From NCBI RefSeq assembly GCF_900101025.1, contig NZ_FMUH01000007.1:124001-188000 (forward strand): DNA of 64,000 nt. Reading direction: 5' to 3'. Below, in pieces: positions 18,468-32,559 of this stretch. The notes under the pieces are model-generated. The model searched no databases. It was not told where the DNA came from and worked only from the letters and a program-made list of their open reading frames with translations. The DNA is from Klenkia marina. Its GTDB lineage: Bacteria; Actinomycetota; Actinomycetes; Mycobacteriales; Geodermatophilaceae. A program made the position numbers and the translations under genes. The first letter of the stretch is position 1. Each line of letters opens with the position of its first letter.

Positions 18468-18477
18468 GGAGACGACG

Positions 18478-19259: not shown

Positions 19260-19319
19260 CGTCATGTGACGCCCAAGACCCAGTTCGGCCTCGTTCTGGG
19301 TCTCCAGCGTCGTATGACG
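19260..19319. repeat. R1 palindromic repeat, copy A
   Basis: This 60-bp element begins and ends with 12-bp near-palindromes (CGTCATGTGACG at 19260-19271, CGTCGTATGACG at 19308-19319). Inside, GACCCAG and CTGGGTC form a second stem, so the whole element can fold into one long hairpin with a 12-nt loop. It shares about 70-72% identity, without gaps, with copies at 20384 and 32500. It lies 15 bp after the crotonase gene. Confidence 0.78.
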
Positions 19320-19454
19320 ACTCCGAACCGATGGGTCGGGTGCTCGCTAGCACGTCCGACGACTCGCTGCTCGTCGTCGTCCACACGTGGGGGCTCTGTC
19401 CACCGGTCTGCGTCGGCACGCCCCGGTGTGCTCGCGGTCGCGGAGGGTCCAGGC

Positions 19455-20393
19455 ATGGTGGTGGACCCGACGACCCTGCTCGGCCGTGACGGCGCACGCC
19501 GCAGCAGCGAGGTGGTGCTCGTCTCCGGTCGCTCGAGCGTGGTCCGGTGGGTGCGCAGCGGCCGGCTGCTCCGACCGTTCCCCGGGGTGCTCGTCGACCC
19601 GGCGCGGGCGCAGGACTGGCGTGTCCGCGCAGCCGCCGCCGTCCTCTGGTCGGGTGGGCGGCTGACCGGTCGCAGCGCCCTGCACCTGGCTGACCTGCTG
19701 GGTGAGCCCGGCCCCCGGGTGCACATCGGGGTGCCGCCGTCACGCCACGTCGCGGTCACCCGTCCGCCGTGGCTGGTGGTGCACGTACGGCGCGAGCTGT
19801 CCGGGCTGGTGCGCAGGGGTCTCGCGGTCGTCGACGACGTCGCAGCCCTGCTCGATGCGTGGGGGTTCGCACACGGCAGTCGCGGGACGGCGCGGGAGGT
19901 GGAGGTGGCCCGGTCGACGGTCATCGGGGCCATCCGGCGGAGACGCGTGGACCCCGCCTTCCTCGTCGCCGCGCTGGAGCTGAACACACGTCTGCCCGGG
20001 AGGGCAGAACTCCTCCACCTCGTCGAGCTGGCGGGCAGCGGATCGCACAGCGAGTTCGAGATCTGGGGGCTGCAGCACCTCTTCGACATCCCCGGGCTGC
20101 CGCCGGTCGAGAGGCAGTACGCGCTCGAGACGGCGATCGGCACCATCCACCTGGACGGCGCTCTCCCGCGGGCCCGCCTGGGCATCGAGCTCGACGGGGC
20201 CGCCTACCACCGCAGTCCGGACAACTGGGCGGGTGACCGGCGGCGCGATGCGGCAGCACTGGCGCTCGACTGGGCGACGTTGCGGATCGACTTCCGCCGC
20301 GCGCACGAAGCGCCGGCCGCTGCCCGCGCGGAGATCGCGGCCGCCTACTGGGCCCGCCTGTCCCGTATCGAGCGACCGCGCGCCGTCATCTGA
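19455..20393 (+). CDS. AbiEi-antitoxin-like winged-helix protein with C-terminal DUF559 endonuclease-like domain
   Basis: This is a 312-residue protein. Residues 15-100 resemble the AbiEi-type N-terminal helix-turn-helix (VVLVSGRSSVVRWVRSGRLL then PGVLVDPARAQDWRVRAAAA). The middle is a helical linker. The C-terminal 90 residues (ARLGIELDGAAYHRS, then DRRRDAAALALDWATLRIDF) match the DUF559/Vsr-like PD-(D/E)XK fold, with the acidic strand ELDG. Such fusions are frequent and poorly understood in actinobacteria; a partner AbiEii toxin is not seen here. The ATG at 19455 has GGAGGG 8 nt upstream. The gene is bracketed by R1 copies A and B, and its TGA stop lies inside copy B. Confidence 0.72.
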   Translation: MVVDPTTLLGRDGARRSSEVVLVSGRSSVVRWVRSGRLLRPFPGVLVDPARAQDWRVRAAAAVLWSGGRLTGRSALHLADLLGEPGPRVHIGVPPSRHVAVTRPPWLVVHVRRELSGLVRRGLAVVDDVAALLDAWGFAHGSRGTAREVEVARSTVIGAIRRRRVDPAFLVAALELNTRLPGRAELLHLVELAGSGSHSEFEIWGLQHLFDIPGLPPVERQYALETAIGTIHLDGALPRARLGIELDGAAYHRSPDNWAGDRRRDAAALALDWATLRIDFRRAHEAPAAARAEIAAAYWARLSRIERPRAVI

Positions 20394-20443
20394 CGCTCAG
20401 GACTCGTTCCGCGGCTGTTCTGGGTCCCAGCCGTCACATGACG
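20384..20443. repeat. R1 palindromic repeat, copy B
   Basis: This 60-bp copy has end motifs CGTCATCTGACG (20384-20395) and CGTCACATGACG (20432-20443). It contains the invariant core GTTCTGGGTC at 20417-20426. It overlaps the last three codons and the stop of the AbiEi/DUF559-like gene. Identity is about 77% to copy C and 70% to copy A by hand count. The hairpin could also act as that gene's terminator. Confidence 0.78.
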
Positions 20444-20471
20444 GCTCGGTGGGGGTGGGTGGGGTTGCGGG

Positions 20472-20678
20472 TCAGCTGACGAGGTCGGCGCAGGACTCGC
20501 AGCTGTCCTCGTCGGCGCCGTCCCAGACCTGATCGAGGTCGACGCGGGCGAGGGCGCCGCACACCGCCACCTCGCAGGCGCCGTCCACCTCGGACGGGCT
20601 GCGGTGCAGCTCCACGGCGTGCCAGGTGCCGGTGCTGCGGCCCTGGGCGGCAGCGAGGGTCAGGACGAGTTCGCTCAT
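20472..20678 (-). CDS. Small conserved-looking protein with C-terminal Cys motif
   Basis: This 68-residue protein is of unknown function. It starts MSELVLTLAAAQGRSTGTWH. It has Cys residues at AVCGAL and at the end, DSCESCADLVS, with an acidic WDGADED between; the paired Cys could bind a metal. There is no membrane segment. The ATG at 20678 is preferred over an upstream in-frame start. It stands alone between copy B of R1 and the metal-dependent hydrolase gene. Confidence 0.6.
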   Translation of the reverse strand: MSELVLTLAAAQGRSTGTWHAVELHRSPSEVDGACEVAVCGALARVDLDQVWDGADEDSCESCADLVS

Positions 20679-20873
20679 GACCTGACGTTCGGCGCCCACC
20701 GGGGGTGCGTGCAGGGACGGGGCGCACGAATCACCCGTCCGGGTTGGTCACTTGTGCACCATCAAGCTCAGGAACCCCCAGGTGAGGACGGCGTGTCCGG
20801 GTGCCGGTCAGCAGCTGCGGGTCCGGCTGGACCACGTCGTGCGGTGCGCACGCGTGCATGGCACGGTCGAGCC

Positions 20874-21509
20874 ATGGAGCTCACCAAGCACGGGCACGCC
20901 TGCGTCGTCCTCTCCGACGGCGAGCGCCGCCTCCTCCTCGACCCCGGCGCCTTCACCGAGGAGTCCGCCTGGGCGGGCGCCACCGCGGTGCTCATCACGC
21001 ACGAGCACTTCGACCACCTCGACGTCGAGCGCACCACGCGCGCCCTGGCCGAGGACCCGGCCCTCGAGCTGTGGACCAACCGCTCGGTCGCCGAGCAGCT
21101 GGGCGCCGGCCAACAGGTGCACGTGGTCGGCCACGGGGACGCCTTCACCGCCGCCGGCTTCGAGGTGGGCGTGCAGGGCGAGTGGCACGCGGTGATCCAC
21201 CCCGACATCCCGCGCATCGCCAACATCGGCTTCGTGGTCGAGGGCCGGGTCTTCCACCCCGGCGACGCGCTCACCGTCCCGGAGTCCGACGTCGAGACGC
21301 TCCTGCTGCCGCTGCACGCCCCGTGGTCGAAGACCGGCGAGCTCATCGACTACGTCCGCGAGGTCGCACCGGCCCGGTCGTTCGCGGTGCACGACGGGCT
21401 GCTCAACGACACCGGTCTGATGGTGGGGGCGAACTTCCTCGGCGAGAACGGCCCCGGCGTCCCGGGCAGCTACCGCCGGTTGTCCCCTGGGGAGTCGGTC
21501 ACCATCTGA
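20874..21509 (+). CDS. MBL-fold metal-dependent hydrolase (UlaG/YcfU-like)
   Basis: This 211-residue protein begins ELTKHGHACVVLSDGERRLL and LDPGAF, typical of the UlaG-like branch of metallo-beta-lactamase-fold proteins. The metal motif HEHFDHLD (HxHxDH) is complete near residue 45, with later ligands in HPGDALTVPESDVETLLLP and AVHDGLL. It probably hydrolyses a small-molecule ester or lactone; the substrate is unknown. It is followed 32 bp later by a small acidic-protein gene on the same strand. Confidence 0.85.
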   Translation: MELTKHGHACVVLSDGERRLLLDPGAFTEESAWAGATAVLITHEHFDHLDVERTTRALAEDPALELWTNRSVAEQLGAGQQVHVVGHGDAFTAAGFEVGVQGEWHAVIHPDIPRIANIGFVVEGRVFHPGDALTVPESDVETLLLPLHAPWSKTGELIDYVREVAPARSFAVHDGLLNDTGLMVGANFLGENGPGVPGSYRRLSPGESVTI

Positions 21510-21541
21510 GTGCGTGCGGCCAGTTCGGGTAGGGCCCGCCC

Positions 21542-21820
21542 ATGCCTGTTGAGGACTACGACATCGAGGACCAGGGCGACCTGCAGTACGTCGTGCGGCT
21601 GAGCGACGGCGAGGAGGACGCCGAGGTCTGGTTCCGGCTGACCCCGTCGGTGCTGGAGCAGCTGGGCGTGGGCACCGACGACGCCGCTGACCTGGTCGCC
21701 GAGACCGTCGACTTCCTGCGCAAGCACCAGGAGATCCCCGACTTCCCCGACATGGTGGAGATCGAGGACGTGCTGGCCACCTACGACGACTACGAGCCGA
21801 CCGTCACGCGTCGTCGCTGA
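21542..21820 (+). CDS. Small acidic protein of unknown function
   Basis: This 92-residue, strongly acidic protein (MPVEDYDIEDQGDLQYV at the start, many Asp/Glu throughout, basic TRRR at the end) is of unknown function. It has no Cys, no membrane helix and no motif I recognise. The predicted order is strand-strand-helix. It probably shares a transcript with the MBL-fold gene 32 bp upstream. Its 3' end overlaps the convergent SRPBCC gene by 17 bp. Confidence 0.68.
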   Translation: MPVEDYDIEDQGDLQYVVRLSDGEEDAEVWFRLTPSVLEQLGVGTDDAADLVAETVDFLRKHQEIPDFPDMVEIEDVLATYDDYEPTVTRRR

Positions 21821-22292
21821 GCTGGGTCCGGGCCTGGGCGCCGGCCTGGGCGAGGTGCTCGGGCAGCTTGGCCAGCTCGCTGTCGACCGTGCGCTGCACC
21901 AGACGGGTGATGCCGCTGCGCTGCACGAAGCGCACCAGCCGCGACCCGCCGACCGGCTCGTGGGTGACGGTGATCGTCACGTCGGTGCCGTCGGCGCCGC
22001 CCTTGCCCACGTCGGCGAGCTCGATGCGCGTCGTCCAGGTCTCGGGGGTGAGCTCGAGCCGGGTCTCCACGACCCGGGCCGGCGTCCACTCGACGATGGT
22101 GCCCTTCGGCGCCCCGGCGCCGGGCGTCGCGCCCTCACCGGGGGCGCAGAGGAACGTCGTGCCCTGCTTCGTGGGTCCGTCGACGACGTAGGTGACGTCG
22201 CAGACCGCGCAGTAGGGGTGCAGGACGGCCAGCGCGGCCCACACGTCCGCACGGCGCTCGGGTACCCGGCGGGTTCCGCTGGCTGTGGTCAC
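21804..22292 (-). CDS. SRPBCC-family protein
   Basis: This is a 162-residue protein of the START/Bet v1-like fold. VPERRADVWAALAVLHPYC is the first helix region, WTPARVVETRLELTPETWTTRIEL the central strands, and FVQRSGITRLVQRTVDSELAKL the long C-terminal helix. It may bind a hydrophobic ligand; no enzymatic residues are recognisable. The GTG at 22292 is the likely start. The gene lies 35 bp downstream of the GntR gene on the same strand, so co-transcription is possible. Confidence 0.75.
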   Translation of the reverse strand: MTTASGTRRVPERRADVWAALAVLHPYCAVCDVTYVVDGPTKQGTTFLCAPGEGATPGAGAPKGTIVEWTPARVVETRLELTPETWTTRIELADVGKGGADGTDVTITVTHEPVGGSRLVRFVQRSGITRLVQRTVDSELAKLPEHLAQAGAQARTQLSDDA

Positions 22293-22327
22293 ACCCCAGA
22301 CGGTAGGACGACGCCCCGGGCGCGCCG

Positions 22328-23065
22328 TCAGCGGCCGTTGACCGAGACCTCGAACTCGACCTGGCTCACGTCGGGGCGCAGCCGCGAGAACGAGTGCACG
22401 AGCGGGTTGCCGAAGCCGTCGAGCACGGTCGTGCGGACGACGAGCAGCGGCGACCCGGCCACGACCTGCAGGACGTCGGCCTCCTCCGCGCCGGCCGTGC
22501 CGACGTCGACCACGATGCGGGCGCGGGCGAGGTCGGCCTCGTACTCGCGGCGCAGGAACTCGTACAGCGAGCCGTGGCCGAAGTCCTCGGTGGCCGCCTT
22601 CGGGTAGTCCTCGGCCGGCAGGAACGAGCGGACGACGTGGTTGGGCAGCCCGTCGACCGAGCGCAGCCGCACGAGCTCGACCACCTCGTCGGCCGGCTCC
22701 AGGCGCAGCTCGGCGGCGACGGCGGGCGGTGCGGCGAGCACCCGCTGGCCCAGCACGGTGGTGCCGACCTGGGCACCCTGCTCGGTCATCACGGAGTGGA
22801 AGCCGGCGATGCGGTGCACGAAGCTCTCGCGGTACTCGTGCCGGATGCCGGGTCGGGTCACGTAGGTGCCGCGGCCCTGCTCGCGCACGAGGTGGCCGTC
22901 GGCGACCAGGCCGTCGACCGCCCGGCGCAGCGTGATGCGGCTGACCCCGTACTCCTCGCACAGCACCGGCTCGGGCGGGAGCAGGGTGTGCTCGGCGAGG
23001 TCGGCCACGCGACGGCGCAGGTGCTCGCGCACGGCCAGGTACTTGGGGCCGGCGTCCGGGCTCAC
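22328..23065 (-). CDS. GntR/HutC-family transcriptional regulator
   Basis: This 245-residue regulator has an N-terminal winged helix (PPEPVLCEEYGVSRITLRRA, then REQGRGTYVTRPG) and a C-terminal UTRA effector domain (YEFLRREYEADLARARIVVD, VVAGSPLLVVRTTVLDGFG). HutC/UTRA regulators sense sugars, amino sugars or histidine intermediates. The start is GTG at 23065. A perfect GACGTCTAGACGTC palindrome lies 47-60 nt upstream in the region shared with a divergent TetR gene, the expected place for an autoregulatory operator. Confidence 0.9.
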   Translation of the reverse strand: MSPDAGPKYLAVREHLRRRVADLAEHTLLPPEPVLCEEYGVSRITLRRAVDGLVADGHLVREQGRGTYVTRPGIRHEYRESFVHRIAGFHSVMTEQGAQVGTTVLGQRVLAAPPAVAAELRLEPADEVVELVRLRSVDGLPNHVVRSFLPAEDYPKAATEDFGHGSLYEFLRREYEADLARARIVVDVGTAGAEEADVLQVVAGSPLLVVRTTVLDGFGNPLVHSFSRLRPDVSQVEFEVSVNGR

Positions 23066-23111
23066 CGTGCTGGTCCGTCGACGTCCACACCGGAAAGGTA
23101 CTCGATCGGCA

Positions 23112-23125
23112 GACGTCTAGACGTC
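23112..23125. promoter_or_regulatory. Candidate GntR/HutC operator palindrome
   Basis: GACGTCTAGACGTC is a perfect 14-bp palindrome between the divergent GntR and TetR genes. Its GTCTAGAC centre matches the core of operators bound by HutC-subfamily regulators such as DasR. It is one of few AT-containing symmetric sites in this gap. The regulator assignment is an inference from proximity. Confidence 0.6.
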
Positions 23126-23219
23126 ATGATGTCCCGGTCCCGTCCGTCGCCTCTGGCGGCGTCGCCGCACAACCCCTATTTTCAGACCGGCTTGTTCCGA
23201 TCTGCCCCGGGAGCGTGCG

Positions 23220-23828
23220 TTGGACACCGACACCTCGACGTCGCCCCGACCCGTGGGTCGACCGAGGGACCCCGCCCTCGACGTCGCCATCCTGCGGGCG
23301 GCCCTCGACCTGCTCGCCGAGGGCGGGCTCGAGGCCTGCGCGCTGGACGAGGTCGCCCGCCGGGCCGGGGTCGGCAAGGCCACCATCTACCGCCGGTGGC
23401 CCAGCAAGGACGACCTGGTCCGCGACGCCTTCGAGGGCACCGACCTCGGCCTGGTGCCCACCGAGGACGTCGGCTCGCTCGTCGAGGACTGCCGCCGGCT
23501 GCTGCTGGCCCTGGGCGCCGCGCTGCGCAGCCCCCGGGCCCGGGCCTGGCGCCGCACCGTCCCGGCTCTCGGGGTGGACTCGCCGCTGGCGGGCAGCCTG
23601 CCCATCGGGCCGGTCGAGGCCTGGAACGAGGCCGTGCTCGACATGCTGGACCGGGCCCGCCGGCGCGGTGAGGTGGCCGCCGACGGCCTGCACCCGCTGG
23701 TGGTGCAGGCCGCCTGCTCGACCGTGATGGCCCGCTGGTTCACCAACCCCGACGGCGACGAGGCCGGCGAGCGCGTGCTGGTCGAGCAGCTGCTCACCGT
23801 GCTCGTCGCGCCGCACCTGCGCCCCTGA
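23220..23828 (+). CDS. TetR-family transcriptional regulator
   Basis: This 202-residue regulator has its helix-turn-helix at about residues 20-65 (LDVAILRAALDLLAEGGLEA, VGKATIYRRWPSKDDLV), the RRWPSK form common in actinobacterial TetR proteins with a TetR_C_11-like C-terminus. No ATG or in-frame GTG lies near the expected start. TTG at 23220 is used, with GGGAG about 8 nt upstream. It diverges from the GntR gene and is followed 38 bp later by another TetR gene. Target and ligand are unknown. Confidence 0.83.
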   Translation: MDTDTSTSPRPVGRPRDPALDVAILRAALDLLAEGGLEACALDEVARRAGVGKATIYRRWPSKDDLVRDAFEGTDLGLVPTEDVGSLVEDCRRLLLALGAALRSPRARAWRRTVPALGVDSPLAGSLPIGPVEAWNEAVLDMLDRARRRGEVAADGLHPLVVQAACSTVMARWFTNPDGDEAGERVLVEQLLTVLVAPHLRP

Positions 23829-23866
23829 CCGGCGACGTGCGGCAGCGGACCTGGGACGATGCCCCG

Positions 23867-24442
23867 GTGGCGGAGCGAGACTGGCGGGCGCAGAAACGGG
23901 ACTCGACCCGTGCGCGGCTGACCGCGGCGGCCTTCGCGCTGTTCGACGAGCGCGGTTACTCGTCCGTCTCCGTAGGGGACATCGCGCACGGCGCCGGCGT
24001 CTCCGTGCCCACCTTCTACGCCTACTTCCGCACCAAGGAGCACGTCGTGCTCCCCGACCAGGACCTCGACTGGATCGCCGGGCACCTGGCCGCGCAGCCG
24101 CCCGACCTCCCGCTGCCCGAGCAGCTGCGGCTGGGCCTGCGGACGCTGGTGGCCGGGTTGACCCGGGAGCAGGAGGAGCTCGCGCTGCGCCGCTGGCGCT
24201 ACGTGCAAGCCGACCCCGGCCTGCAGATGCGCGCCGCCGAGCGCGAGAACCACTCGGCTCGGGTGGTCGTGGCCGAGCTGGGCGTCGACCCGGCGACGCC
24301 CGCGGGGTCGGCGATCGTCGTGGTCGTCGTCGCCTGCCTGCGGGCGGCCACCGCGGCCATGGTCCGCTGGGCCGCCGCCGACGGCCGCCACCCGCTGCCG
24401 GACCTGGTCGACGAGGCCTTCGCCGCGCTGCGGTCGATGTGA
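23867..24442 (+). CDS. TetR-family transcriptional regulator
   Basis: This 191-residue regulator has the helix-turn-helix TAAAFALFDERGYSSVSVGD and VSVPTFYAYFRTKEHVV within the first 60 residues. The effector domain is short and Ala/Val-rich. The GTG at 23867 gives a usual N-terminal length; an in-frame GTG at 23837 would add ten residues. It lies directly downstream of another TetR gene and converges on the metallophosphoesterase gene with only 1 bp between stops. It has no obvious structural gene partner. Confidence 0.82.
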   Translation: MAERDWRAQKRDSTRARLTAAAFALFDERGYSSVSVGDIAHGAGVSVPTFYAYFRTKEHVVLPDQDLDWIAGHLAAQPPDLPLPEQLRLGLRTLVAGLTREQEELALRRWRYVQADPGLQMRAAERENHSARVVVAELGVDPATPAGSAIVVVVVACLRAATAAMVRWAAADGRHPLPDLVDEAFAALRSM

Positions 24443-24443
24443 C

Positions 24444-25667
24444 TCAGCCGGGCTGCAGCTCGATGACGGTGATCTCCGGCCGGGCGCCGACCCTCATGGG
24501 CGGCCCCCAGTACCCGGCCCCCGACGTCACGTAGAGCTGCGTGTCGCCCTGGCGGGACAGGCCCTCGACGGCGGGCTGGTCGAGGGTGACCGCGTAGTCG
24601 AAGGGCCACAGCTGCCCGCCGTGGGTGTGCCCGCTCAGCTGCAGGTCGACCCCGGCGCGGCGGGCCTGCTCGACCTGCACGGGCTGGTGGGCCAGCAGCA
24701 CCACCGGCACCGAGTCGTCGCGGCCGTCGAGCGCGGCGTCGAGGTCGGCGCCGTGCCCGGGCAGCCCCGACGCCGCGGCCGTGCGGTCGTCGATGCCGGC
24801 CAGGTCGAAAGCACCCGCGCCCCGGCGGAGCGACACGCGCTCGTTGCGCAGCACCTGCAGGCCCAGCCCGTCGAGGTGGGTCAGCCAGGCGTCGGTGTCG
24901 ACGAAGTACTCGTGGTTGCCGGTGACGAAGTAGGCGCCGTCGCGGCTGACCAGGTCGCCCAGCGGGGCGGCGTCCCGCCGCAGCTCGGACACCTCGCCGT
25001 CGACCAGGTCGCCCACGACCGCGACCGCGTCCGGGGACTGCGCGTTGACCATCTCGACCAGCCGCTCGAACCGGCGCCCGCCGTAGGTCGCCGAGAGGTG
25101 GCCGTCGGAGAAGGTGACGATGCGGTAGCCGGCCAGCGCCGGGTCCAGTCCGGCGAGCGCGATCGGCACCCGGCGCACGACGGGCGCCGAGTTGGCCGCC
25201 CACAGCCCGTACCCGGCGGTGCCGACCGCGGCCGCGCCGGCCGTGACGGCCAGCGACCGGGCCAGGAACAACCGCCGGGACACGTCGACCGGTTCGGCCG
25301 CGGGCTCGGGTGCCGAAGCCGGTTCCGCCCCGGGTGCGGCGGGTGCCGCCTCCACCGCGGCCGGACGACGGCGCTGCACGGCCCGCAGCACCCACCGCAC
25401 CGGCTCGAGCACCAGCAGCGCCAGGAAGGCGTAGAACGCGACGCCCAGCCAGGTGTAGCCGACCCAGTCCAGCGGCGCCTGCACCGCGAAGGGCAGCGAC
25501 CGCCGTCCCAGCACGGCTGCGGTGGGCAGCAGCGCCAGGACGACGGCCAGCACGGTCAGCCACCGCCGCACCCGACCCGGGCGGGTGGTGCTGCGCACGA
25601 GCCGGAACCACAGCCAGCCGTGCAGCAGCACCATCGCGAGGGCGACGACGGCACCGAAGGCGATCAC
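24444..25667 (-). CDS. Membrane-anchored metallophosphoesterase
   Basis: This is a 407-residue protein. Four hydrophobic segments occupy roughly residues 1-20, 38-58, 72-95 and 135-160, the last preceded by VSRRLFLARS. The calcineurin-like phosphoesterase domain follows: FSDGHLS (usual DxH), VGDLVDGE, TGNHEYFVDT, LLAHQP and LSGHTHGGQLWPF supply the two-metal site. This is the YkuE/YaeI-like layout, with the catalytic part probably outside the membrane. It begins 10 bp after the CYTH-CHAD gene on the same strand, so the two likely form an operon. The substrate is unknown. Confidence 0.88.
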   Translation of the reverse strand: MIAFGAVVALAMVLLHGWLWFRLVRSTTRPGRVRRWLTVLAVVLALLPTAAVLGRRSLPFAVQAPLDWVGYTWLGVAFYAFLALLVLEPVRWVLRAVQRRRPAAVEAAPAAPGAEPASAPEPAAEPVDVSRRLFLARSLAVTAGAAAVGTAGYGLWAANSAPVVRRVPIALAGLDPALAGYRIVTFSDGHLSATYGGRRFERLVEMVNAQSPDAVAVVGDLVDGEVSELRRDAAPLGDLVSRDGAYFVTGNHEYFVDTDAWLTHLDGLGLQVLRNERVSLRRGAGAFDLAGIDDRTAAASGLPGHGADLDAALDGRDDSVPVVLLAHQPVQVEQARRAGVDLQLSGHTHGGQLWPFDYAVTLDQPAVEGLSRQGDTQLYVTSGAGYWGPPMRVGARPEITVIELQPG

Positions 25668-25677
25668 CGCCCCATTG

Positions 25678-27606
25678 TCAGCGCTTGCGCGTGACCCCGT
25701 TCAGCACGGGCCCCAGCGTGGGCCACAGCGCCCAGAAGTCGCGCTCGGCCTGCATGGCCCGCATCTCCTCCAGGGCGTGCAGCCGGCCGTAGGTCCAGGC
25801 GTTCTCGCCGGCGGCGAAGGCGGCCAGCCCCAGGGTGCGGCACAGCTCGCGGGTGACCACGGTGTCCTGCCGGTCACCGAGCACGTCCTGCAGCTGCTTC
25901 ATCGCGTCGACCACGCCCATGGCGGCGCCGTTCTTCTTCTTGCCGCCGCCGTCGAGCACGGGCGCGGCGACCTCGGCGGTGTAGCGCACCCGCTTGCCGG
26001 CCTTGCGCACCTCGTGCAGCGCGAGCTCGTAGGGGCTCTCCGCCGCACCGTGCTCGGCGAGCGCGTGCCCGGCGGGGCCGTCCTCGGCGAACTCGGCGTC
26101 CTCGGCGGTGTCGACCAGCTTCTGCAGCCGCTTCACCGTGCGCCGCAGCACCGCGGCCAGGACCTCCTCGGCCGGCTCGGCGGCCAGCTCGGTCAGCGGG
26201 GGCTGGTCGACCAGGGCGTGCAGGGTGTCCAGCAGCGTCAGGTAGCGCGGCGTGCTCATCGCGGCGACGGCGTGCCCGGCGCCCTGCGTGCCGCCCTGGA
26301 GCTCGGCCTGCTGCAGGCGGGCGGCCACCGGGCCGAGCACGAACTCCACCGGCTGCGCGGCGACCAGCTCGCGCAGGTGCTCGACCGACACCTCGGCGTC
26401 GCGGGTGCCCGAGAGCTCCTGGCCCAGCCACTGCAGCTCGTCGCGGACGGCGTCGGTGCGGGTGCGGTCGATGACCGGCCGGTAGGCGGCCAGGATGCTG
26501 CGCAGCCGGCGGGCGGCGACGCGCACCTGGTGGACGCCGTCGGGGACGTCGGTGCGCACCATCAGGTCGGCCCGCTGCAGGGCGGCCAGCTGCCCGGCGA
26601 GCGCGGCGACGACGACGTCCCCGGCCTTGGGGACCGCGGCCAGCCGGGCCTGCTCGGCGGCCTCGTGCTCGGCGGCCTCCTGCGCCTTCGCAGCCCTCTT
26701 CGCGTCCTTCTTCGCCGTCTTCTTCGCCGCCTTCTCGGCGGCCTTGGCCGCGGCCTTCGCCGCCGCCGCACGACGGGCGATCTCCTTGGCCCGGGCCTTC
26801 TTGCCGGTGGGCAGCGGCTCCTCGGGGACGGGCTGCTCGGACAGGTCGTCCACGACGCCGTCCTGCTCGCCGGCGGCCGCGTCGTCGGCGCCGTCGGCCG
26901 CCGCGCCCTCGGCGACGGCGTCCTCGGCAGCGTCGTCCTCGTCGTCCTCGTCGTCGTCCTCGTCCTGGACGGCGGCCGGCGGCGGGCCGGCCAGGCGGTC
27001 GGCGAGCACGCGGGCGAGCTTGGCGGCCGAGGCCGACGGCCGGGCACCGGAGACCTCGAGCTCGGCGCCGACGGCGCTGAGCAGCCCCTCGTCGCCGTCG
27101 ACCAGCTCGACCTCGACCTCGCGCCACGTGGTGACCACGACCGCGTCGCCGGGGGTGGCCGGCAGGGCGGTGCCGGTGACCTGGTCGTCGGCGACCTCGG
27201 CCAGCACCCGGCCGTCCTCGGCCAGCAGGGTGGTCAGGGTGCGGCGGGTGGCCAGCGTCGCGACCTGGGCGGTCGGGGCGCGCCGGACCACGCCGAGCAC
27301 CGGCGCGAGCGTCGCCCGGGGCGGGGCCTTGACGGCCCGGCCCAGCGGCGAGTGCAGCTCGCGGCGGGCACCGGCCTCGGCGGGGAGCTTGAGGTGCCAG
27401 CCCGCGTCGGTGCCGCCGGTGCGCCGGCGCAGGGTGATCTTCGCGCGGGCCAGGCGCAGGTCGGCGGTGTCGTAGTAGGTGGCCGACAGCTCGTGCACGA
27501 CGGGCTCACCGACCGAGGCCACCCCGGGCACCCCGGAGAGGTCGGGCACCACGAACGTCTCCTCGACGTCGAACTTGCGCTCGATCTCGGTGTGCTCGGT
27601 CGCCAC
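25678..27606 (-). CDS. CYTH and CHAD domain protein with acidic and Ala/Lys-rich linker
   Basis: This is a 642-residue protein. The N-terminal CYTH triphosphate tunnel domain has EIERKFDV (ExExK) at the start, ITLRRRTGG and WHLKLPAEAG. The linker begins with a run of Asp/Glu (about residue 222) and continues as a long Ala/Lys helix (around residues 270-320). The C-terminal CHAD domain contains VHQVRVAARRLRSILAAYRP and LHEVRKAGKRVRYTAE, with conserved basic residues that bind polyphosphate in characterised CHAD proteins. A role in polyphosphate or inorganic triphosphate handling is likely. The GTG at 27606 has AGGAG 8 nt upstream. Confidence 0.9.
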   Translation of the reverse strand: MATEHTEIERKFDVEETFVVPDLSGVPGVASVGEPVVHELSATYYDTADLRLARAKITLRRRTGGTDAGWHLKLPAEAGARRELHSPLGRAVKAPPRATLAPVLGVVRRAPTAQVATLATRRTLTTLLAEDGRVLAEVADDQVTGTALPATPGDAVVVTTWREVEVELVDGDEGLLSAVGAELEVSGARPSASAAKLARVLADRLAGPPPAAVQDEDDDEDDEDDAAEDAVAEGAAADGADDAAAGEQDGVVDDLSEQPVPEEPLPTGKKARAKEIARRAAAAKAAAKAAEKAAKKTAKKDAKRAAKAQEAAEHEAAEQARLAAVPKAGDVVVAALAGQLAALQRADLMVRTDVPDGVHQVRVAARRLRSILAAYRPVIDRTRTDAVRDELQWLGQELSGTRDAEVSVEHLRELVAAQPVEFVLGPVAARLQQAELQGGTQGAGHAVAAMSTPRYLTLLDTLHALVDQPPLTELAAEPAEEVLAAVLRRTVKRLQKLVDTAEDAEFAEDGPAGHALAEHGAAESPYELALHEVRKAGKRVRYTAEVAAPVLDGGGKKKNGAAMGVVDAMKQLQDVLGDRQDTVVTRELCRTLGLAAFAAGENAWTYGRLHALEEMRAMQAERDFWALWPTLGPVLNGVTRKR

Positions 27607-27686
27607 GGCGCATCCACTCCTGCTGATCAACGGGTTGAGGTGCGCTTTCTACCGCAACCAGGTGAACGGCAACCCCGTGGCCGATC

Positions 27687-28649
27687 ATGGCTGCGATGAG
27701 CACCGTGCGGCGCGACCTCCTGCCCCTGGCCCTCGCGACCCCCTGGGCGGTGTGCGCGGGGCTGCGCGCGACCGGGGCCGAGCGCGGCTGGCCGCTGGTC
27801 CCGGCGATGTCGTTCGTGCCCTACGCGGCGGCCTCGGCGGTGCTGCCGCTGGGCGTCGCACTGGCCCGCCGGTCCCCCGTCGCGACCGCGGTGTCGGCCG
27901 CCGCGGCCGGGGTGCTGGCCGGCGCCGTGGCCGCCCGCGGGCGGGGCGGGGCAGCCGCCGGCCCGGGCCCGCGGGTGCGCATCGTGTCGGCGAACCTGCT
28001 GCACGGCCGGGCCGACCCGCGCGCCGTCGTCGACCTGGTGCGCCGCCTGGACGCCGACGTCCTGTGCCTGGTCGAGCTGACCCCGGCCGCCGACGAGGCG
28101 TTCCGGGCCTCCGGGCTGCCCGAGCTGCTGCCGCACGAGCACGTGCGCGGGCACCGGCCGGGCGCGCCGCCGGCAGCCGGGGGCGCGGTGTGGACCCGCC
28201 TCGAGGTGCTCGAGCGGGGCGGGGCGCCGGGCCGGTTCGAACAGCCCGTCGTCCGGTTGGCCGTGCCGGGGGCGCCCGACCTCGAGGTGACCGCGGTGCA
28301 CACCGACCCCCCGGTGACCCGGTCGCGCACCCGCCGGTGGGAGCGCGAGATGGCCCAGCTGCCGGGGGCGACCGACGACGTCCTTCGCGTGCTGGCCGGG
28401 GACTTCAACGCCACGCCCGACCACGCCACGTTCCGGCGGCTGCTGGCCCGGGGCTACGCCGACGCCGGCGCCCGCACCGGGCGGGCGCTGGTGCACACCT
28501 GGAGCCCCGAGCAGCGCCCGCAGCCCCGGCTGACCATCGACCACGTGCTGGCCGACCGGCGGGTCGGGGTGGCGGCGTTCTCGGTGCACGACCTGCCCGG
28601 CAGCGACCACCGGGCCCTGGCGGCGGAGCTGGTGCTGCCGGCCCGGTAG
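27687..28649 (+). CDS. Endonuclease/exonuclease/phosphatase-family membrane protein
   Basis: This 320-residue protein has two to three N-terminal hydrophobic segments (to about residue 85) followed by an EEP-fold domain. VRIVSANLLHGRADP holds the metal-binding Asn, LCLVELTP the Glu, VLAGDFNATPDH the Asp-Asn pair and GSDHRALAAEL the final Asp-His. This form is frequent in actinobacteria, where it may act on a phosphodiester outside the membrane. ATG at 27687 is used, with ATG at 27696 as an alternative. The antiporter gene follows 16 bp later. Confidence 0.85.
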   Translation: MAAMSTVRRDLLPLALATPWAVCAGLRATGAERGWPLVPAMSFVPYAAASAVLPLGVALARRSPVATAVSAAAAGVLAGAVAARGRGGAAAGPGPRVRIVSANLLHGRADPRAVVDLVRRLDADVLCLVELTPAADEAFRASGLPELLPHEHVRGHRPGAPPAAGGAVWTRLEVLERGGAPGRFEQPVVRLAVPGAPDLEVTAVHTDPPVTRSRTRRWEREMAQLPGATDDVLRVLAGDFNATPDHATFRRLLARGYADAGARTGRALVHTWSPEQRPQPRLTIDHVLADRRVGVAAFSVHDLPGSDHRALAAELVLPAR

Positions 28650-28665
28650 GCACGAGGATCGAGCG

Positions 28666-30285
28666 GTGCGCGCGCTCGAGGTCCTGGTCGTCGTCGGTGT
28701 CCTGGTGCTGGTCGGCTCGGTGCTGGCCCGCCGGTTGCGGTTGCCCCCGCCGCTGGTGCTGCTGGCGCTGGGCACCGTCGTCGGCTTCCTGCCCGGGGTC
28801 GGCGGGGTCGAGATGCCGCCGGACGTCGTCCTGTTCCTGTTCCTGCCGGCGCTGCTGTACTGGGAGTCGCTGACCATCTCGCTGCGCCAGATCCGCGCCG
28901 ACCTGCGGGTGATCAGCCTGATGTCGATCGCCCTGGTGCTGATCACGGCCGGCACCGTCGCGGTGGTCGCGCACGCCCTGGGGCTGGACTGGCCGATGGC
29001 GTTCGTGCTCGGCGCGGTGCTGGCCCCCACCGACGCCACCGCCGTGTCGACCGTCGCCGGGCTGCTGCCCCGCCGGGCGCGCACCATCCTGCGGGCCGAG
29101 AGCCTGGTCAACGACGGCACCGCGCTGGTGGTCTTCGGGGTGGCGGTCGGCGTGGCCGTGGGCACGCTGGACGTCGGCCCGGGCGGCATCGCGTGGCGGC
29201 TGGTGCTGTCCTACGCCGGGGGCATCGCGGTCGGGCTGGCGCTTGCCTTCGCCGTGGTCGCGGTGCGCCGACGGCTGCACGACACCCGGCTGGAGAACGT
29301 GCTCAGCGTGCTCACCCCGTTCCTGGCCTACCTGCCGGCTGAGCTTCTGGGCGTCTCCGGCGTCGTCGCCGTGGTGACCTGCGGCCTGACCCTCACCCAG
29401 ATCTCCACGCGGGTGATCTCGGCCCGCACCCGCGTGCAGTCCACCAGCTTCTGGACCCTCACCACGTTCCTGCTCAACGGGGCGCTGTTCGTGCTGGTCG
29501 GCCTCGAGCTGCACGCCGTGGTCGAGGGCCGCACCGCCGACGAGCTGTGGTCCGGCGTCGTGGCGACGCTGTGGATCGCGCTGACCGTCGTCGGCACCCG
29601 CCTGGTGTGGGGCAACACCACCCCGTTCGTGATCCGGGCGCTGGACCGCCGGCCGGCGCAGCGCGCCCGTCGGGTCGGGTTCCGCGGTCGGCTGCCCACC
29701 CAGTGGGCCGGGTTCCGCGGCGCGGTGTCGCTGGCCGCGGCCCTGGCGGTGCCGACGACGACCGCCGACGGCACCCCGCTGGAGGGTCGGGACCTGGTGC
29801 TGCTGGTGACCTTCGGCGTCATCACCGTCCTGCTGGTGGTGCAGGGCCTGACCCTGCCGGCCGTGATCCGGTTCTCCCGGTTGCAGCAGGACCCCGCCGA
29901 GGAGGAGGAACGGCTCCTCGCCGAACGCGAGATGACCCGGGCCGGCGCCGAGGCGATCGAGCAGCGGGCCACCGAGCTGGGCGTGCCCGAGGTCGTGGTC
30001 GAGCGGGTGCGCGAGTCCTACGAGACCCGCATGCGCCAGCAGCACGTCGAGCAGGTGCTGGCCGACGGCCGGGTCACCGACCCCGACCACGTCGCCGCCA
30101 AGCGCCGGGTGCTCGCCGACGCGGCCGCCGAGTCGCAGCTGCGGCTGGCCCTGCTGGCCGACAAGCGCGAGGCGGTGGTGCGGCTGCGCGACGAGCACAC
30201 CATCGACGACGGCGTGCTGCGCCGGCTGACGGCCCAGCTCGACGTCGAGGAGGTCCGCCTGCTGGGCGTCGAGACCGACGAGTAG
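28666..30285 (+). CDS. Cation/proton antiporter of the CPA1 (NhaP-like) family
   Basis: This 539-residue protein has about twelve transmembrane segments through residue 400, then a long charged cytoplasmic tail. Family marks are FLFLPALLYWESL in an early helix, LGAVLAPTDATAVSTVAG (the ion-binding Asp region) and RAESLVNDGTALVVF (the ND pair). The tail from about residue 415 is rich in Glu/Arg with coiled-coil character. It would exchange Na+ or K+ for H+ for pH and salt balance. The GTG at 28666 has GAGGA upstream. Confidence 0.92.
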   Translation: MRALEVLVVVGVLVLVGSVLARRLRLPPPLVLLALGTVVGFLPGVGGVEMPPDVVLFLFLPALLYWESLTISLRQIRADLRVISLMSIALVLITAGTVAVVAHALGLDWPMAFVLGAVLAPTDATAVSTVAGLLPRRARTILRAESLVNDGTALVVFGVAVGVAVGTLDVGPGGIAWRLVLSYAGGIAVGLALAFAVVAVRRRLHDTRLENVLSVLTPFLAYLPAELLGVSGVVAVVTCGLTLTQISTRVISARTRVQSTSFWTLTTFLLNGALFVLVGLELHAVVEGRTADELWSGVVATLWIALTVVGTRLVWGNTTPFVIRALDRRPAQRARRVGFRGRLPTQWAGFRGAVSLAAALAVPTTTADGTPLEGRDLVLLVTFGVITVLLVVQGLTLPAVIRFSRLQQDPAEEEERLLAEREMTRAGAEAIEQRATELGVPEVVVERVRESYETRMRQQHVEQVLADGRVTDPDHVAAKRRVLADAAAESQLRLALLADKREAVVRLRDEHTIDDGVLRRLTAQLDVEEVRLLGVETDE

Positions 30286-30288
30286 CCC

Positions 30289-30303
30289 GGAGGGGGTCCC
30301 TCC
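30289..30303. terminator. Short hairpin between convergent genes
   Basis: GGAGGG-GGT-CCCTCC forms a 6-bp stem with a 3-nt loop between the antiporter stop (30285) and the convergent omega-amidase stop (30305). It is a likely bidirectional terminator without a T-tract. Confidence 0.5.
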
Positions 30304-30304
30304 C

Positions 30305-31063
30305 CTAGCCGCGGTCCTGGAGGAAGGGGAACCGCGCGCGGACGCGGGCGACCTCGGCGGCGTCGACGTCGGCCAGCAGCACCATCTCGCCGTCGCCGGC
30401 CTCGGCCAGCAGCTCGCCCAGCGGGCTGACGATGCGGCTGTCGCCGCTGTGCTGCGTACCGTCGCCGGCGGTGCCCACGCGGTTCACGCCCACCACGTAG
30501 GCCTGGTTCTCGATGGCCCGGGCGCGCAGCAGCGTCGTCCAGTGCTCGCGGCGGGCGGCCGGCCAGTTGGCCGGCACCAGGTAGACGTCGGTGTCGGGCG
30601 CCAGCGCCCAGAAACCGTCGGCGAAGCGGAGGTCGTAGCAGACGAACAGGGTCACCCGCAGGTCACCGACCTGCACGGTCAGCGGCGCGGAGCCGGCGCG
30701 GTACCGCTCGTGCTCGCCGGCGTAGGTGAACGGGTGCTGCTTGCGGTAGCGGTGCACGGTGCCGTCGGGCCCGGCCAGCACGAAGGAGTTGAACGGGAGC
30801 TCCTCGCCGACGGCGATCTCCGCGCACGACCCGCCCACCCAGACCCCGTGCTGCTGCGCCTGCTCGGTCAGCCACTGCGCCGACGACCCGCCCTCGGGCT
30901 CGCCGATGCCCGGGGTCATGGAGAACCCGGTGGAGAACGTCTCGCTGAGCAGCACCAGCTCGGCGCCCTGCTCGACCGCCCGGGCCACGTGGCCGGCCAG
31001 TGCCGCGTGGTTGGCGGCGCGGTCCTCCCAGACGATGTCGTGCTGGATCGCGGCGATCCTCAT
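30305..31063 (-). CDS. Omega-amidase-like carbon-nitrogen hydrolase (YafV/Nit2 type)
   Basis: This 252-residue nitrilase-superfamily enzyme has the complete Glu-Lys-Cys triad: E41 (LLSETFSTGF), K108 (HRYRKQHPF) and C142 (FVCYDLRF). The compact form and FSTGFSMTP resemble YafV/omega-amidase, which hydrolyses 2-oxoglutaramate or 2-oxosuccinamate to the 2-oxo acid and ammonia. Its ATG overlaps the stop of the upstream aminotransferase in ATGA. In other bacteria this pair makes a glutamine-transaminase/omega-amidase route used to salvage 2-oxo acids such as the methionine keto acid. The function fits both sequence and neighbour. Confidence 0.87.
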   Translation of the reverse strand: MRIAAIQHDIVWEDRAANHAALAGHVARAVEQGAELVLLSETFSTGFSMTPGIGEPEGGSSAQWLTEQAQQHGVWVGGSCAEIAVGEELPFNSFVLAGPDGTVHRYRKQHPFTYAGEHERYRAGSAPLTVQVGDLRVTLFVCYDLRFADGFWALAPDTDVYLVPANWPAARREHWTTLLRARAIENQAYVVGVNRVGTAGDGTQHSGDSRIVSPLGELLAEAGDGEMVLLADVDAAEVARVRARFPFLQDRG

Positions 31064-32235
31064 GCGGTCAACCTCCGGACTGCCTCGTCGAGCACCTCGT
31101 CGCGCTTGCAGAACGCGAACCGCACCAGGTCGCGGCCGTCGCCGGCGTGCTGCGGGGTGTAGAACGCCGACATCGGGACGGCGACGACGCCCACCCGGTG
31201 CGGCAGCTCGCGGCAGAACGCCAGCCCGTCGCCGTCGACCCGCGCGGTGGCGAAGTAGGTGGCCTGCGGGCTGACCACCGGCAACCCGGCGGCCGCGAGC
31301 CCGGCCACCAGGCGGTCACGCCTGCCCTCCAGCTCGGCGGCCACCCCCGTGAAGTACGCGTCGGGCAGACCCAGGCCGGCGGCGATCGCGGGCTGGAAGG
31401 GTCCGGCGTTGACGTAGGTGAGGAACTGCTTGGCCGTGCGCACGCAGGCCACCAGCCCCGCCGGCCCGCACACCCAGCCGACCTTCCAGCCGGTGGTGGA
31501 GAAGGTCTTGCCGCCGCTGCCGACCACCAGCGTGCGCTCGCGCATGCCCGGCAGCTGCGCCAGCGAGACGTGCTCGGCGCCCGAGAACACCAGGTGCTCG
31601 TAGACCTCGTCGGTGACGGCCAGCAGGTCGTGCTCGAGGACGACGTCGGCCACCACCTCGAGCTCCGCGCGGTCGAGGACCTTCCCGGTGGGGTTGTGCG
31701 GGGTGTTGAGCAGCACCAGCTTGGTGCGCGGGGTGACCGCGGCGCGCAGCTCGTCGGGGTCGAACGTCCACGGCGCGGTGGAGACCTCGCCCGGCGCGAC
31801 CGGCGGGGGCCGCAGCGGCACCGGGACGACGACGCCCCCGGCCATCGCGACGCCGGCCGCGTAGCTGTCGTAGAGCGGCTCGAGCACCATGACCTCGTCG
31901 CCCGGGTCGAGCAGCCCGAGCATCGCCCCGGCCAGGGCCTCGGTGGCACCCGCCGTCACCAGCACCTCGCTGCCCGGGTCGTAGGCCAGGCCGCGGAACC
32001 GCTGCACGTGGGCGGCGATGGCCTCCCTCAGCACGGGCAGCCCGGGGCCGGGCGGGTACTGGTCCAGCGGGGTGCCGATCGCGGCGCGCGCGACGTCGAG
32101 CACCTCGGCCGGCCCGGGGGTGTCGGGGAAGCCCTGCCCGAGGTTCACCGAGCCGGTGGCCACCGCCAGTGCGCTCATCTCGGCGAAGACCGTCGTCCCG
32201 AAGCCCTGCAGGCGGGCGGCGAGGTGGGTGCTCAC
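31060..32235 (-). CDS. Pyridoxal-phosphate aminotransferase, kynurenine/glutamine transaminase K-like
   Basis: This 391-residue fold-type I aminotransferase has the N-terminal region NLGQGFPDTPGPAEVLD typical of the kynurenine/glutamine transaminase K branch (MetC-like YbdL). The remaining marks are NTPHNPTGKVL, AVTDEVYEHLVFSG and GSGGKTFSTTGWKVGWV, where the Lys of SGGK holds PLP. It would transaminate glutamine or another amino acid with a 2-oxo acid, yielding 2-oxoglutaramate for the downstream omega-amidase. The start is GTG at 32235, overlapping the stop of a small upstream gene in GTGA. Confidence 0.9.
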   Translation of the reverse strand: MSTHLAARLQGFGTTVFAEMSALAVATGSVNLGQGFPDTPGPAEVLDVARAAIGTPLDQYPPGPGLPVLREAIAAHVQRFRGLAYDPGSEVLVTAGATEALAGAMLGLLDPGDEVMVLEPLYDSYAAGVAMAGGVVVPVPLRPPPVAPGEVSTAPWTFDPDELRAAVTPRTKLVLLNTPHNPTGKVLDRAELEVVADVVLEHDLLAVTDEVYEHLVFSGAEHVSLAQLPGMRERTLVVGSGGKTFSTTGWKVGWVCGPAGLVACVRTAKQFLTYVNAGPFQPAIAAGLGLPDAYFTGVAAELEGRRDRLVAGLAAAGLPVVSPQATYFATARVDGDGLAFCRELPHRVGVVAVPMSAFYTPQHAGDGRDLVRFAFCKRDEVLDEAVRRLTA

Positions 32236-32459
32236 GCGGTCGAGCCTGCCACCTTGACCAGCACGTCGGGCGGCACCACCCAGGGGCGGTCGGGGTAGCG
32301 GTCGAGCACGACCGTCACCTTCGACCGGCCCAGCGACGCGATGCGGCCGACCTCGCCGCCCAGGTAGGCGGGCACCCCTCGACGCGTGCGGGTGGGCGCG
32401 ATGCGCACCCGGTCGTCGACGGCGATCGGGTCGCCCCGGTAGTCCGTGAACCCCGCCAT
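32232..32459 (-). CDS. Small KOW/SH3-like protein of unknown function
   Basis: This 75-residue basic protein (MAGFTDYRGDPIAVDDRVRI at the start; GGEVGRIASLGRSKVTVVLD in the middle) reads like a KOW- or SH3-type small barrel, as in proteins that contact RNA or regulate enzyme flow, but no family can be named. Its stop overlaps the GTG of the aminotransferase in GTGA, so it heads a three-gene operon. R1 copy C lies 41 bp upstream of its ATG. Confidence 0.65.
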   Translation of the reverse strand: MAGFTDYRGDPIAVDDRVRIAPTRTRRGVPAYLGGEVGRIASLGRSKVTVVLDRYPDRPWVVPPDVLVKVAGSTA

Positions 32460-32499
32460 CCCCCGAGTGTGCTCCCGCCGCCACACGCACGCCGTGAGC

Positions 32500-32559
32500 C
32501 GTCGCACGACGCCGAGGACCCGTTCCGGGCGCGTTCTGGGTCCTGGGCGTCACATGACG
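32500..32559. repeat. R1 palindromic repeat, copy C
   Basis: This 60-bp copy has ends CGTCGCACGACG (32500-32511) and CGTCACATGACG (32548-32559) and the invariant GTTCTGGGTC core at 32533-32542. The stem GGACCCG/TGGGTCC is also kept. It lies in the divergent gap between the small KOW-like gene and the FAD-oxidase gene. That position cannot be a shared 3' terminator for both, so the element is not simply a terminator. It is 12 kb from copies A and B. Confidence 0.78.

Follow-up and report, generated by a model that had tools for sequence, protein, structure and literature searches.

The locus considered here lies in the window, by which we mean the whole 64,000-nucleotide stretch of Klenkia marina DNA that was analysed, and comprises three copies of a 60-bp palindrome, R1, two of which flank a gene whose product is predicted to be a nuclease while the third stands alone. 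The features are:

18403-19245: enoyl-CoA hydratase-like gene upstream of R1a (Pfam ECH_1)
19260..19319, no strand: R1a, the 60-bp palindrome to the left of the nuclease gene, separated by 14 bp from the stop codon of the enoyl-CoA hydratase-like frame
19260..19271, no strand: outer left 12-mer of R1a, CGTC-N4-GACG; the right 12-mer is 19308-19319
19276..19303, no strand: inner stem-loop of R1a, positions 17-23 pairing with 38-44, loop about 24-37
19320..19454, plus strand: 135-bp leader from R1a to the start codon, presumed promoter region
19455..20393, plus strand: 312-aa nuclease gene, predicted AbiEi-like N-terminal part and C-terminal Vsr/DUF559/MTES_1575 nuclease domain, stop codon inside R1b
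20384..20443, no strand: R1b, the 60-bp palindrome to the right of the nuclease gene, with which it shares the gene's final 10 bases
32500..32559, no strand: R1c, solo 60-bp palindrome with a minus-strand frame on one side and a plus-strand gene on the other
Neighbours of R1c (starts by eye): minus-strand reading frame starting at about 32459, then an aminotransferase-like gene; plus-strand gene with its ATG at 32628

The coordinates, length and gap-free alignment of the three copies are exactly as in the original prediction, with pairwise identities of 42, 43 and 46 of 60 (70-77%). The predicted 12-bp ends are likewise there, CGTC-N4-GACG standing at both ends of each copy, and GTTCTGGGTC, claimed to be invariant, occupies columns 34-43 of all three and is found nowhere else in the window. 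The strict frame CGTCN4GACG-N36-CGTCN4GACG has just three matches in the window, at 19260, 20384 and 32500, with 0.00012 expected from base composition. As RNA all three copies fold end to end (z of -7.45, -2.22 and -3.56); no known RNA family was found for R1, the window giving only three tRNAs at gathering score. Since R1 is nearly palindromic, 34-42 of the 60 positions equalling their own reverse complement, the earlier remark that the copies lie in one orientation means little, and R1a and R1c indeed agree at 45 positions in reverse but at 43 when compared directly.

The family has further copies in its own genome, so that the outcome named beforehand as refuting it did not occur: a model of the three R1 copies finds 10 places at E<1e-6, 7 of them outside the training set. 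Strong copies are present in six of the nine genomes of the genus, and in a search of 60 genomes with stricter filters all hits below E 1e-7 were confined to six Klenkia genomes. Among 58 distinct 60-mers (a set that excludes the 5 of 49 hits in relatives that are not 60 bp, L006 with 59 bp and L012 with 61 bp in the own genome, and weaker hits), positions 1-4 and 9-12 are nearly invariant, positions 5-8 covary with 53-56, the strongest covariation falls on pairs 17-20, and base pairing exceeds that of all of 500 shuffles. Arms of about 24 bp surround a 12-bp middle. This anatomy, dispersed, mostly extragenic, of constant length and with compensating changes, bears out the REP-like half of the proposed REP/MITE-like family. 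A second palindrome class (GTGCGC...) occurs in 53 of 112 genomes of the family Geodermatophilaceae, at up to 13 places per genome, the reversed pattern giving one place in one genome as a control.

The gene between R1a and R1b had been overlooked in the original prediction. Its 312-aa product is predicted to combine an AbiEi-like DNA-binding part with a Vsr/DUF559 nuclease of the homing-endonuclease type in one chain. The predicted structure (pLDDT 92, pTM 0.80) has as its best PDB matches AbiEi (6y8q, E 1.9e-5) and Rv2827c (1zel, 2.3e-4), followed, at E above 0.001, by the catalytic domain of the homing endonuclease I-Bth0305I (3r3p, 0.012) and by NGO0050 (3hrl, 0.16), both with a TM-score of 0.78 on the target. 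A sequence profile search of the PDB returned no convincing relative: apart from NGO0050 at E 0.33 it matched only short parts of designed or repeat beta-propellers, and these matches we regard as artefacts. In the window protein the Pfam match to the nuclease domain covers 238-295 and lies under the curated cut-off; at E<=0.01, MTES_1575 matches all 77 family members, DUF559 72 and AbiEi_4 26. One alignment (A3) has 2 of 26 members (L073, L066) differing at a conserved nuclease residue, and another (A4) leaves out 4 of 80 loci with stops or a frameshift.

Full-length orthologues with 62-75% identity occur in exactly the six Klenkia genomes that have strong palindrome copies, and in these six species the gene is syntenic. 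The best matches in G004 and G005 reach 51% and 50% identity, and G008, which is 73% complete, has 37% over the full length and one 64-residue match at 64%; at the corresponding locus these three genomes carry another gene, phosphatase-like by eye, rather than an empty site. Between G000 and G002 the nuclease gene shows 71% nucleotide identity, against 87% upstream and 82% downstream. More widely, the DUF559/MTES_1575-type gene family occurs in many actinobacteria, with 55 of 296 genomes giving a match at E<=1e-20.

Palindromes gather beside these genes in most of the Geodermatophilaceae relatives examined. At the 80 loci kept of 147 found among relatives, the three 100-bp bins beside the gene hold 97 palindromes, the 77 other bins hold 70, and the gene itself 3. 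Palindromes of about 59-61 bp and score >=12 stand on both sides of the gene at 45 of 78 loci, compared with 1 of 310 shifted windows, and in 18 of 27 gene contexts; at 34 of the 80 loci fewer than two palindromes reach that score. Left and right palindromes resemble each other within loci (42.3 of 60) more than between loci (28.8; 0 of 10,000 permutations, 46 loci). Protein identity and palindrome similarity go together over 45 loci (Spearman 0.80, 0 of 2000 permutations), a figure from which shared descent is not removed and part of which shared descent explains. The partial correlations of palindrome similarity with the two protein domains are 0.38 and 0.39, the nuclease domain doing as well as the N-terminal part, so that DNA binding is not pinned to one domain. 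When the nuclease-flanking copies are held separate, solo copies show a modest fit to the type of the resident nuclease (41.9 versus 39.2 of 60, 33 of 720 label permutations being equally good); in G002 only 3 of 10 are of the same type as its own nuclease. Among 29 relatives outside the Geodermatophilaceae, 16 have no palindrome in the scan, and a matching pair was seen by eye only at L309.

Our analysis thus points to the AbiEi/Vsr-type nuclease as the likely partner of the R1 palindromes, and we lean, if only slightly, towards the view that R1 is the DNA half of a REP/RAYT-like two-part system, with the AbiEi-Vsr nuclease from the gene between R1a and R1b as its protein half. The partner enzyme that had been suggested, a RAYT-type transposase, is not to be seen: PF01797 (Y1/RAYT transposase) has no match in the nine genomes of the genus, and the control is positive in 5 of 14 reference genomes.

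How might such a system work? We infer binding, cutting and copying, and likewise which party benefits. The palindromes would be putative binding sites of the nuclease, whose AbiEi-like N-terminal part would most likely bind the two arms as a pair of monomers; we propose that this is what fixes the palindrome length at 59-61 bp. The Vsr/homing-type domain would then nick or cut at the palindrome, and repair would, at a low rate, place copies of palindromes at the ends of other genes and also overwrite existing ones, so that, as we propose, the dispersed set turns over along with the protein. Many copies lie at orthologous places in several species, and movement is therefore slow at best. The copy at 32500 is missing at the corresponding place in G006 and is missing in G003, where other DNA lies in between, and solo copy L004 is missing in G005 and G006; neither the nuclease locus nor the two solo positions searched gave an empty site with an exact junction, the intergenic DNA being too diverged.

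One could suppose instead that the palindromes are operators and that the AbiEi-nuclease is a regulator repressing itself and a small regulon, with sites held by selection and no spreading. AbiEi proteins are reported to autoregulate via inverted repeats (PMC7319586), and both the structural matches to AbiEi and Rv2827c and the orthology of many sites fit this reading, which we nevertheless consider unlikely. A rough gene caller (by eye wrong in placing at least L001 inside a gene) puts 15 of the 48 solo copies between convergent genes, 23 between tandem genes and 4 between divergent ones, with 5 inside genes and 1 undetermined, a poor fit for operators. Moreover, a palindrome of score >=12 also lies downstream of the nuclease gene at 59 of 78 loci, against 33 of 310 control windows, and the nuclease-type residues are invariant in 77 members, which would be unexpected in a mere repressor.

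Quite improbable, in our judgement, is a defence nuclease that attacks foreign or replicating DNA while the chromosomal palindromes titrate it, tether it or mark self. AbiEi and Vsr/REase parts are both described from conflict systems (PMC3710099; PMC3985639), and of three proteins compared with PADLOC, L120 and L135 match its AbiEi models; the third, the window protein, has no PADLOC match, however, and about 10 copies per genome are few for self-marking. Nor did the viral contigs of IMG/VR or the plasmids of PLSDB yield any relative, a result that also disfavours a virus- or plasmid-borne gene.

It is very improbable that the palindromes are ordinary terminators or RNA hairpins of accidental likeness, with the nuclease uninvolved: they do fold strongly and sit mostly at gene ends, but in none of 54 copies do three or more consecutive Ts lie within 12 nt of an end, which disfavours an intrinsic terminator (GC hairpin plus T-run), 44 of 49 hits in relatives are exactly 60 bp with nearly invariant CGTC-N4-GACG ends, one gene family has palindromes on both sides as counted above, and the palindromes co-diverge with the nuclease protein. 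It is equally improbable that R1 is a MITE mobilised by a DDE transposase of conventional type, although it is a short inverted-repeat element that codes for nothing. Abutting direct repeats of 2-8 bp are not above shuffles in 54 copies, so that a MITE with target-site duplication is disfavoured and the MITE-like half of the original proposal gains no support from such duplications; the gene enclosed by paired copies about 1.1 kb apart in G000, G001, G003 and G006 is the nuclease, and palindrome type tracks the nuclease.

More generally, we see an even chance that the REP/RAYT way of life was invented a second time, independently, by a large AbiEi-Vsr family in Geodermatophilaceae, with clade-specific palindromes of a fixed length of about 60 bp that stand at either end of the gene and are dispersed along the chromosome, and an enzyme that copies and rewrites them by cut-and-repair. 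To our knowledge, an established partner enzyme for scattered short bacterial palindromes is found only in RAYT-type systems, and if our reading is true this would be the first dispersed-palindrome system we know of with a non-HUH enzyme. If the pairing is right, an unrelated nuclease fold can found a REP/RAYT-like system, a DUF559/MTES_1575-type gene family of many actinobacteria acquires a function, and dozens of naturally diverged protein-site pairs would make a DNA-recognition code readable.

With REP/RAYT systems (REPtron, REPIN; features compared after PMC2817692) the present one shares the scattering of palindromes outside genes, a nuclease gene lying between copies of its own palindrome, co-divergence of protein and palindrome, and an enzyme gene that changes more quickly than the genes around it, as seen here between G000 and G002. 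It differs in having an AbiEi-Vsr/DUF559 nuclease rather than an HUH Y1 transposase related to IS200/IS605, palindromes of about 60 bp rather than the 20-40 given in PMC3733652, CGTC-N4-GACG at both ends and no GTAG tag, and about 10 copies per genome where PMC2817692 speaks of usually more than 100. CGTC-tagged REPs (Di Nocera 2013, PMC3733652), which that source says have no dedicated transposase, are extragenic palindromes that also bear CGTC terminally; as described there, however, they are 20-40 bp long with an unpaired CGTC at one end, whereas ours are 60 bp with CGTC paired with GACG at both. Since other palindrome classes of the present family lack CGTC ends, the shared motif is probably a coincidence. 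According to PMC7319586, the inverted repeats bound by AbiEi relatives are 23 bp long and come in pairs with a spacing of 3 or 13 bp, and the AbiEi antitoxins and Rv2827c with their operators share with our system the predicted N-terminal fold and a length, 23+13+23 = 59 bp, equal to that of the palindromes, whose arms of about 24 bp around a 12-bp middle agree with this layout; the nuclease fusion, the two-sided flanking of the gene and the dispersal of palindromes in the genome set the present system apart. Finally, I-Bth0305I, a Vsr/EDxHD-type homing endonuclease, resembles our protein in the predicted fold of the catalytic domain, but here the gene is chromosomal and has dispersed palindromes of its own.

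The three R1 elements lie exactly where they had been placed, each is 60 bp long, and they align without gaps, with 42-46 of 60 letters identical.

19260-19319, R1a, 60-bp palindrome
19455-20393 (+), 312-aa gene with a predicted AbiEi-like part and a Vsr/DUF559 nuclease domain
20384-20443, R1b, 60-bp palindrome
32500-32559, R1c, 60-bp palindrome

All three fold end to end, and the strict frame CGTC-N4-GACG-N36-CGTC-N4-GACG occurs at only three places in the window, all of them R1, where 0.00012 are expected. Their single orientation, on which the original prediction had remarked, carries no meaning, since R1 is nearly identical to its own reverse complement. A set of 58 distinct 60-mers shows almost no variation at positions 1-4 and 9-12 or at the positions paired with them; pairing exceeds that of shuffled letters at 5-8/53-56 and 17-23/38-44 (pair 22/39 being invariant), and no pairing beyond shuffled letters is seen at 13-16/45-48. 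Total pairing was greater than in all 500 shuffles, which ignore the relatedness of the sequences, and a smaller set of 12 sequences gave the same outcome. It follows that the unit has CGTC-N4-GACG at either end and, joined by a linker of about 4 bp, an inner stem with its loop.

Searching the 4.22-Mb genome with a covariance model built from the three copies gave ten places at E<1e-6, seven of them outside the training set, so that the proposed family does extend beyond the window. A second model, built from 12 copies and run on 60 genomes, gave matches at E<=1e-4 in 15 of them; all matches below 1e-7 were confined to six of the nine Klenkia genomes, and weaker ones, some likewise 60 bp long, occurred in other genera of Geodermatophilaceae (e.g. 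at 1.7e-7 in genome G030). The length is exactly 60 bp in 44 of the 49 matches inspected in five relatives. The second base outside the 60-mer is G on the left in 41 of 54 cases and C on the right in 40 of 54, and the conserved unit may thus be slightly longer than 60 bp.

The only gene between R1a and R1b is the predicted nuclease gene, which ends with its stop codon inside R1b. The only Pfam match of its protein is a weak one to the nuclease MTES_1575 (E 2.2e-6, below the curated cut-off); at E<=0.01, 77 family members match MTES_1575 (77/77), DUF559 (72/77) and AbiEi_4 (26/77). With the AlphaFold2 model (pLDDT 92), Foldseek retrieved AbiEi (6y8q, E 1.9e-5), Rv2827c (1zel, E 2.3e-4), a homing endonuclease catalytic domain (3r3p, E 0.012, TM 0.78 on target) and NGO0050 (3hrl, E 0.16, TM 0.78); the order of the AbiEi-like and nuclease parts is inferred from Pfam positions. 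Residues S199, E202, D234, E245, D247, G248, H252, D261 and D265 are invariant in all 77 members of protein alignment A4, and two of the 26 members of alignment A3 deviate (L073 at D247, L066 at H252); from what is known of the Vsr family, we take the conserved residues to be putatively catalytic. Nuclease copies L053, L064, L106, L134, L138 and L163 are interrupted by stops or frameshifts within the part that was matched, which suggests decay in some lineages.

Besides K. marina, full-length orthologues (62-75% identity) are found in the Klenkia genomes G001, G002, G003, G006 and G007, and the genomes that have them are exactly those with strong R1 repeats. The best relatives in G004 and G005 reach 51% and 50% identity. 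In the 73%-complete G008, R1 was not found and the best full-length relative has 37% identity; a separate 64-residue match at 64% (C289:4750-4941) is possibly a partial or diverged closer relative. The syntenic place in G004, G005 and G008 (L241-L243) holds a different gene, by eye histidine-phosphatase-like.

K. marina itself carries a second, diverged paralogue of the nuclease gene (C5:69377-70345), about 50 bp from a palindrome (L013, C5:69262-69324) of a second class, GAACGCC...GGCCCAGAACC/GGTTCTGGGCC, of which a solo copy lies elsewhere in this genome (L015, C14:261041-261101). Upstream of a third paralogue (L045, C7:377567-378433) is a palindrome of yet another, GGTATCGGAAGC-like class.

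Among 296 actinobacterial genomes searched with a profile, 55 have relatives of the nuclease at E<=1e-20. In GTDB genomes we found 147 relatives and kept 80 loci, all from Geodermatophilaceae genera except L119, labelled unverified Bacillus and probably mislabelled. Palindromes of 44-76 bp at these loci number 97 in the three 100-bp bins next to the gene (upstream 0-199, downstream 0-99), compared with 70 across the remaining 77 bins and 3 within the gene. A score of 12 was reached on both sides at 45 of 78 loci (two were too near the end of a contig); when windows were shifted along these loci as a control, 1 of 310 did so. Two-sided palindromes are present in 18 of 27 gene contexts. Where both palindromes exist (46 of 80 loci), the two have median spans of 59 and 61 bp; left and right share 42.3 of 60 letters within a locus versus 28.8 between loci (reached in 0 of 10,000 permutations), and 41 of the 46 pairs lie above the 99th percentile of random palindromes. 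About ten classes can be told apart by eye, and palindrome similarity increases with protein identity (Spearman 0.80, 45 loci, 0 of 2000 permutations). A class other than that of R1, GTGCGC..., occurs in 53 of 112 family genomes at up to 13 places each, some of them nuclease flanks, versus one place for a reversed-pattern control. Outside Geodermatophilaceae, the scan found no palindrome at 16 of 29 loci and a matching pair, by eye, at L309 only; the distant relative L302, from another actinobacterial family, has two upstream palindromes. Together L309 and L302 hint at an association that may predate Geodermatophilaceae.

Many solo copies, away from any nuclease gene, occupy orthologous places in different species, yet their types differ; L007, for instance, is of type A, L171 and L200 of type B. 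Because the surrounding intergenic DNA has diverged likewise, such differences alone are no proof of copying. Counterparts are not present for the copy at 32500 in G006 and G003, nor for copy L004 in G005 and G006; in place of the 60-mer, the L004 site of G003 (L244) has a different hairpin, GTGACAGCTGAGCGTGGTC..., about 50 bp long, which may represent one more palindrome class. At two sites with a single copy in relatives, G006 has doublets of adjacent 60-mers with starts 70 and 94 bp apart (L193, L194); L193 combines types A and B, and L194 looks like a tandem duplication. On average solo copies share 41.9 of 60 letters with the resident nuclease's palindromes versus 39.2 with those of others (33 of 720 label permutations were as good), G002 being an exception.

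How might such an enzyme and such repeats fit together? AbiEi proteins bind to 23-bp inverted repeats that come in pairs, spaced by 3 bp (S. agalactiae) or 13 bp (Rv2827c) (PMC7319586). The latter arrangement gives 23+13+23 = 59 bp, and the palindrome fixed here at 59-61 bp therefore suits an AbiEi-type DNA-binding pair, which would need just such a fixed length. Titles and abstract beginnings among the matches listed in open-licence literature other than bioRxiv gave no description of a palindrome-nuclease association. The anatomy parallels that described for RAYTs and their REPs (PMC2817692): a gene with palindromes at both ends and scattered copies elsewhere, here with a homing-type nuclease joined to the AbiEi-like part. 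Of the suggested REP/MITE-like family, the REP-like anatomy thus stands and membership of REP/RAYT does not, since the enzyme is unrelated to Y1 transposases and no Y1 transposase, the proposed RAYT-type partner, was found in the nine genus genomes. Given this parallel anatomy and unrelated enzyme, our reading is that the palindromes and the AbiEi-nuclease work like a REP/RAYT system rather than belonging to it, with putative binding, cutting and spreading.
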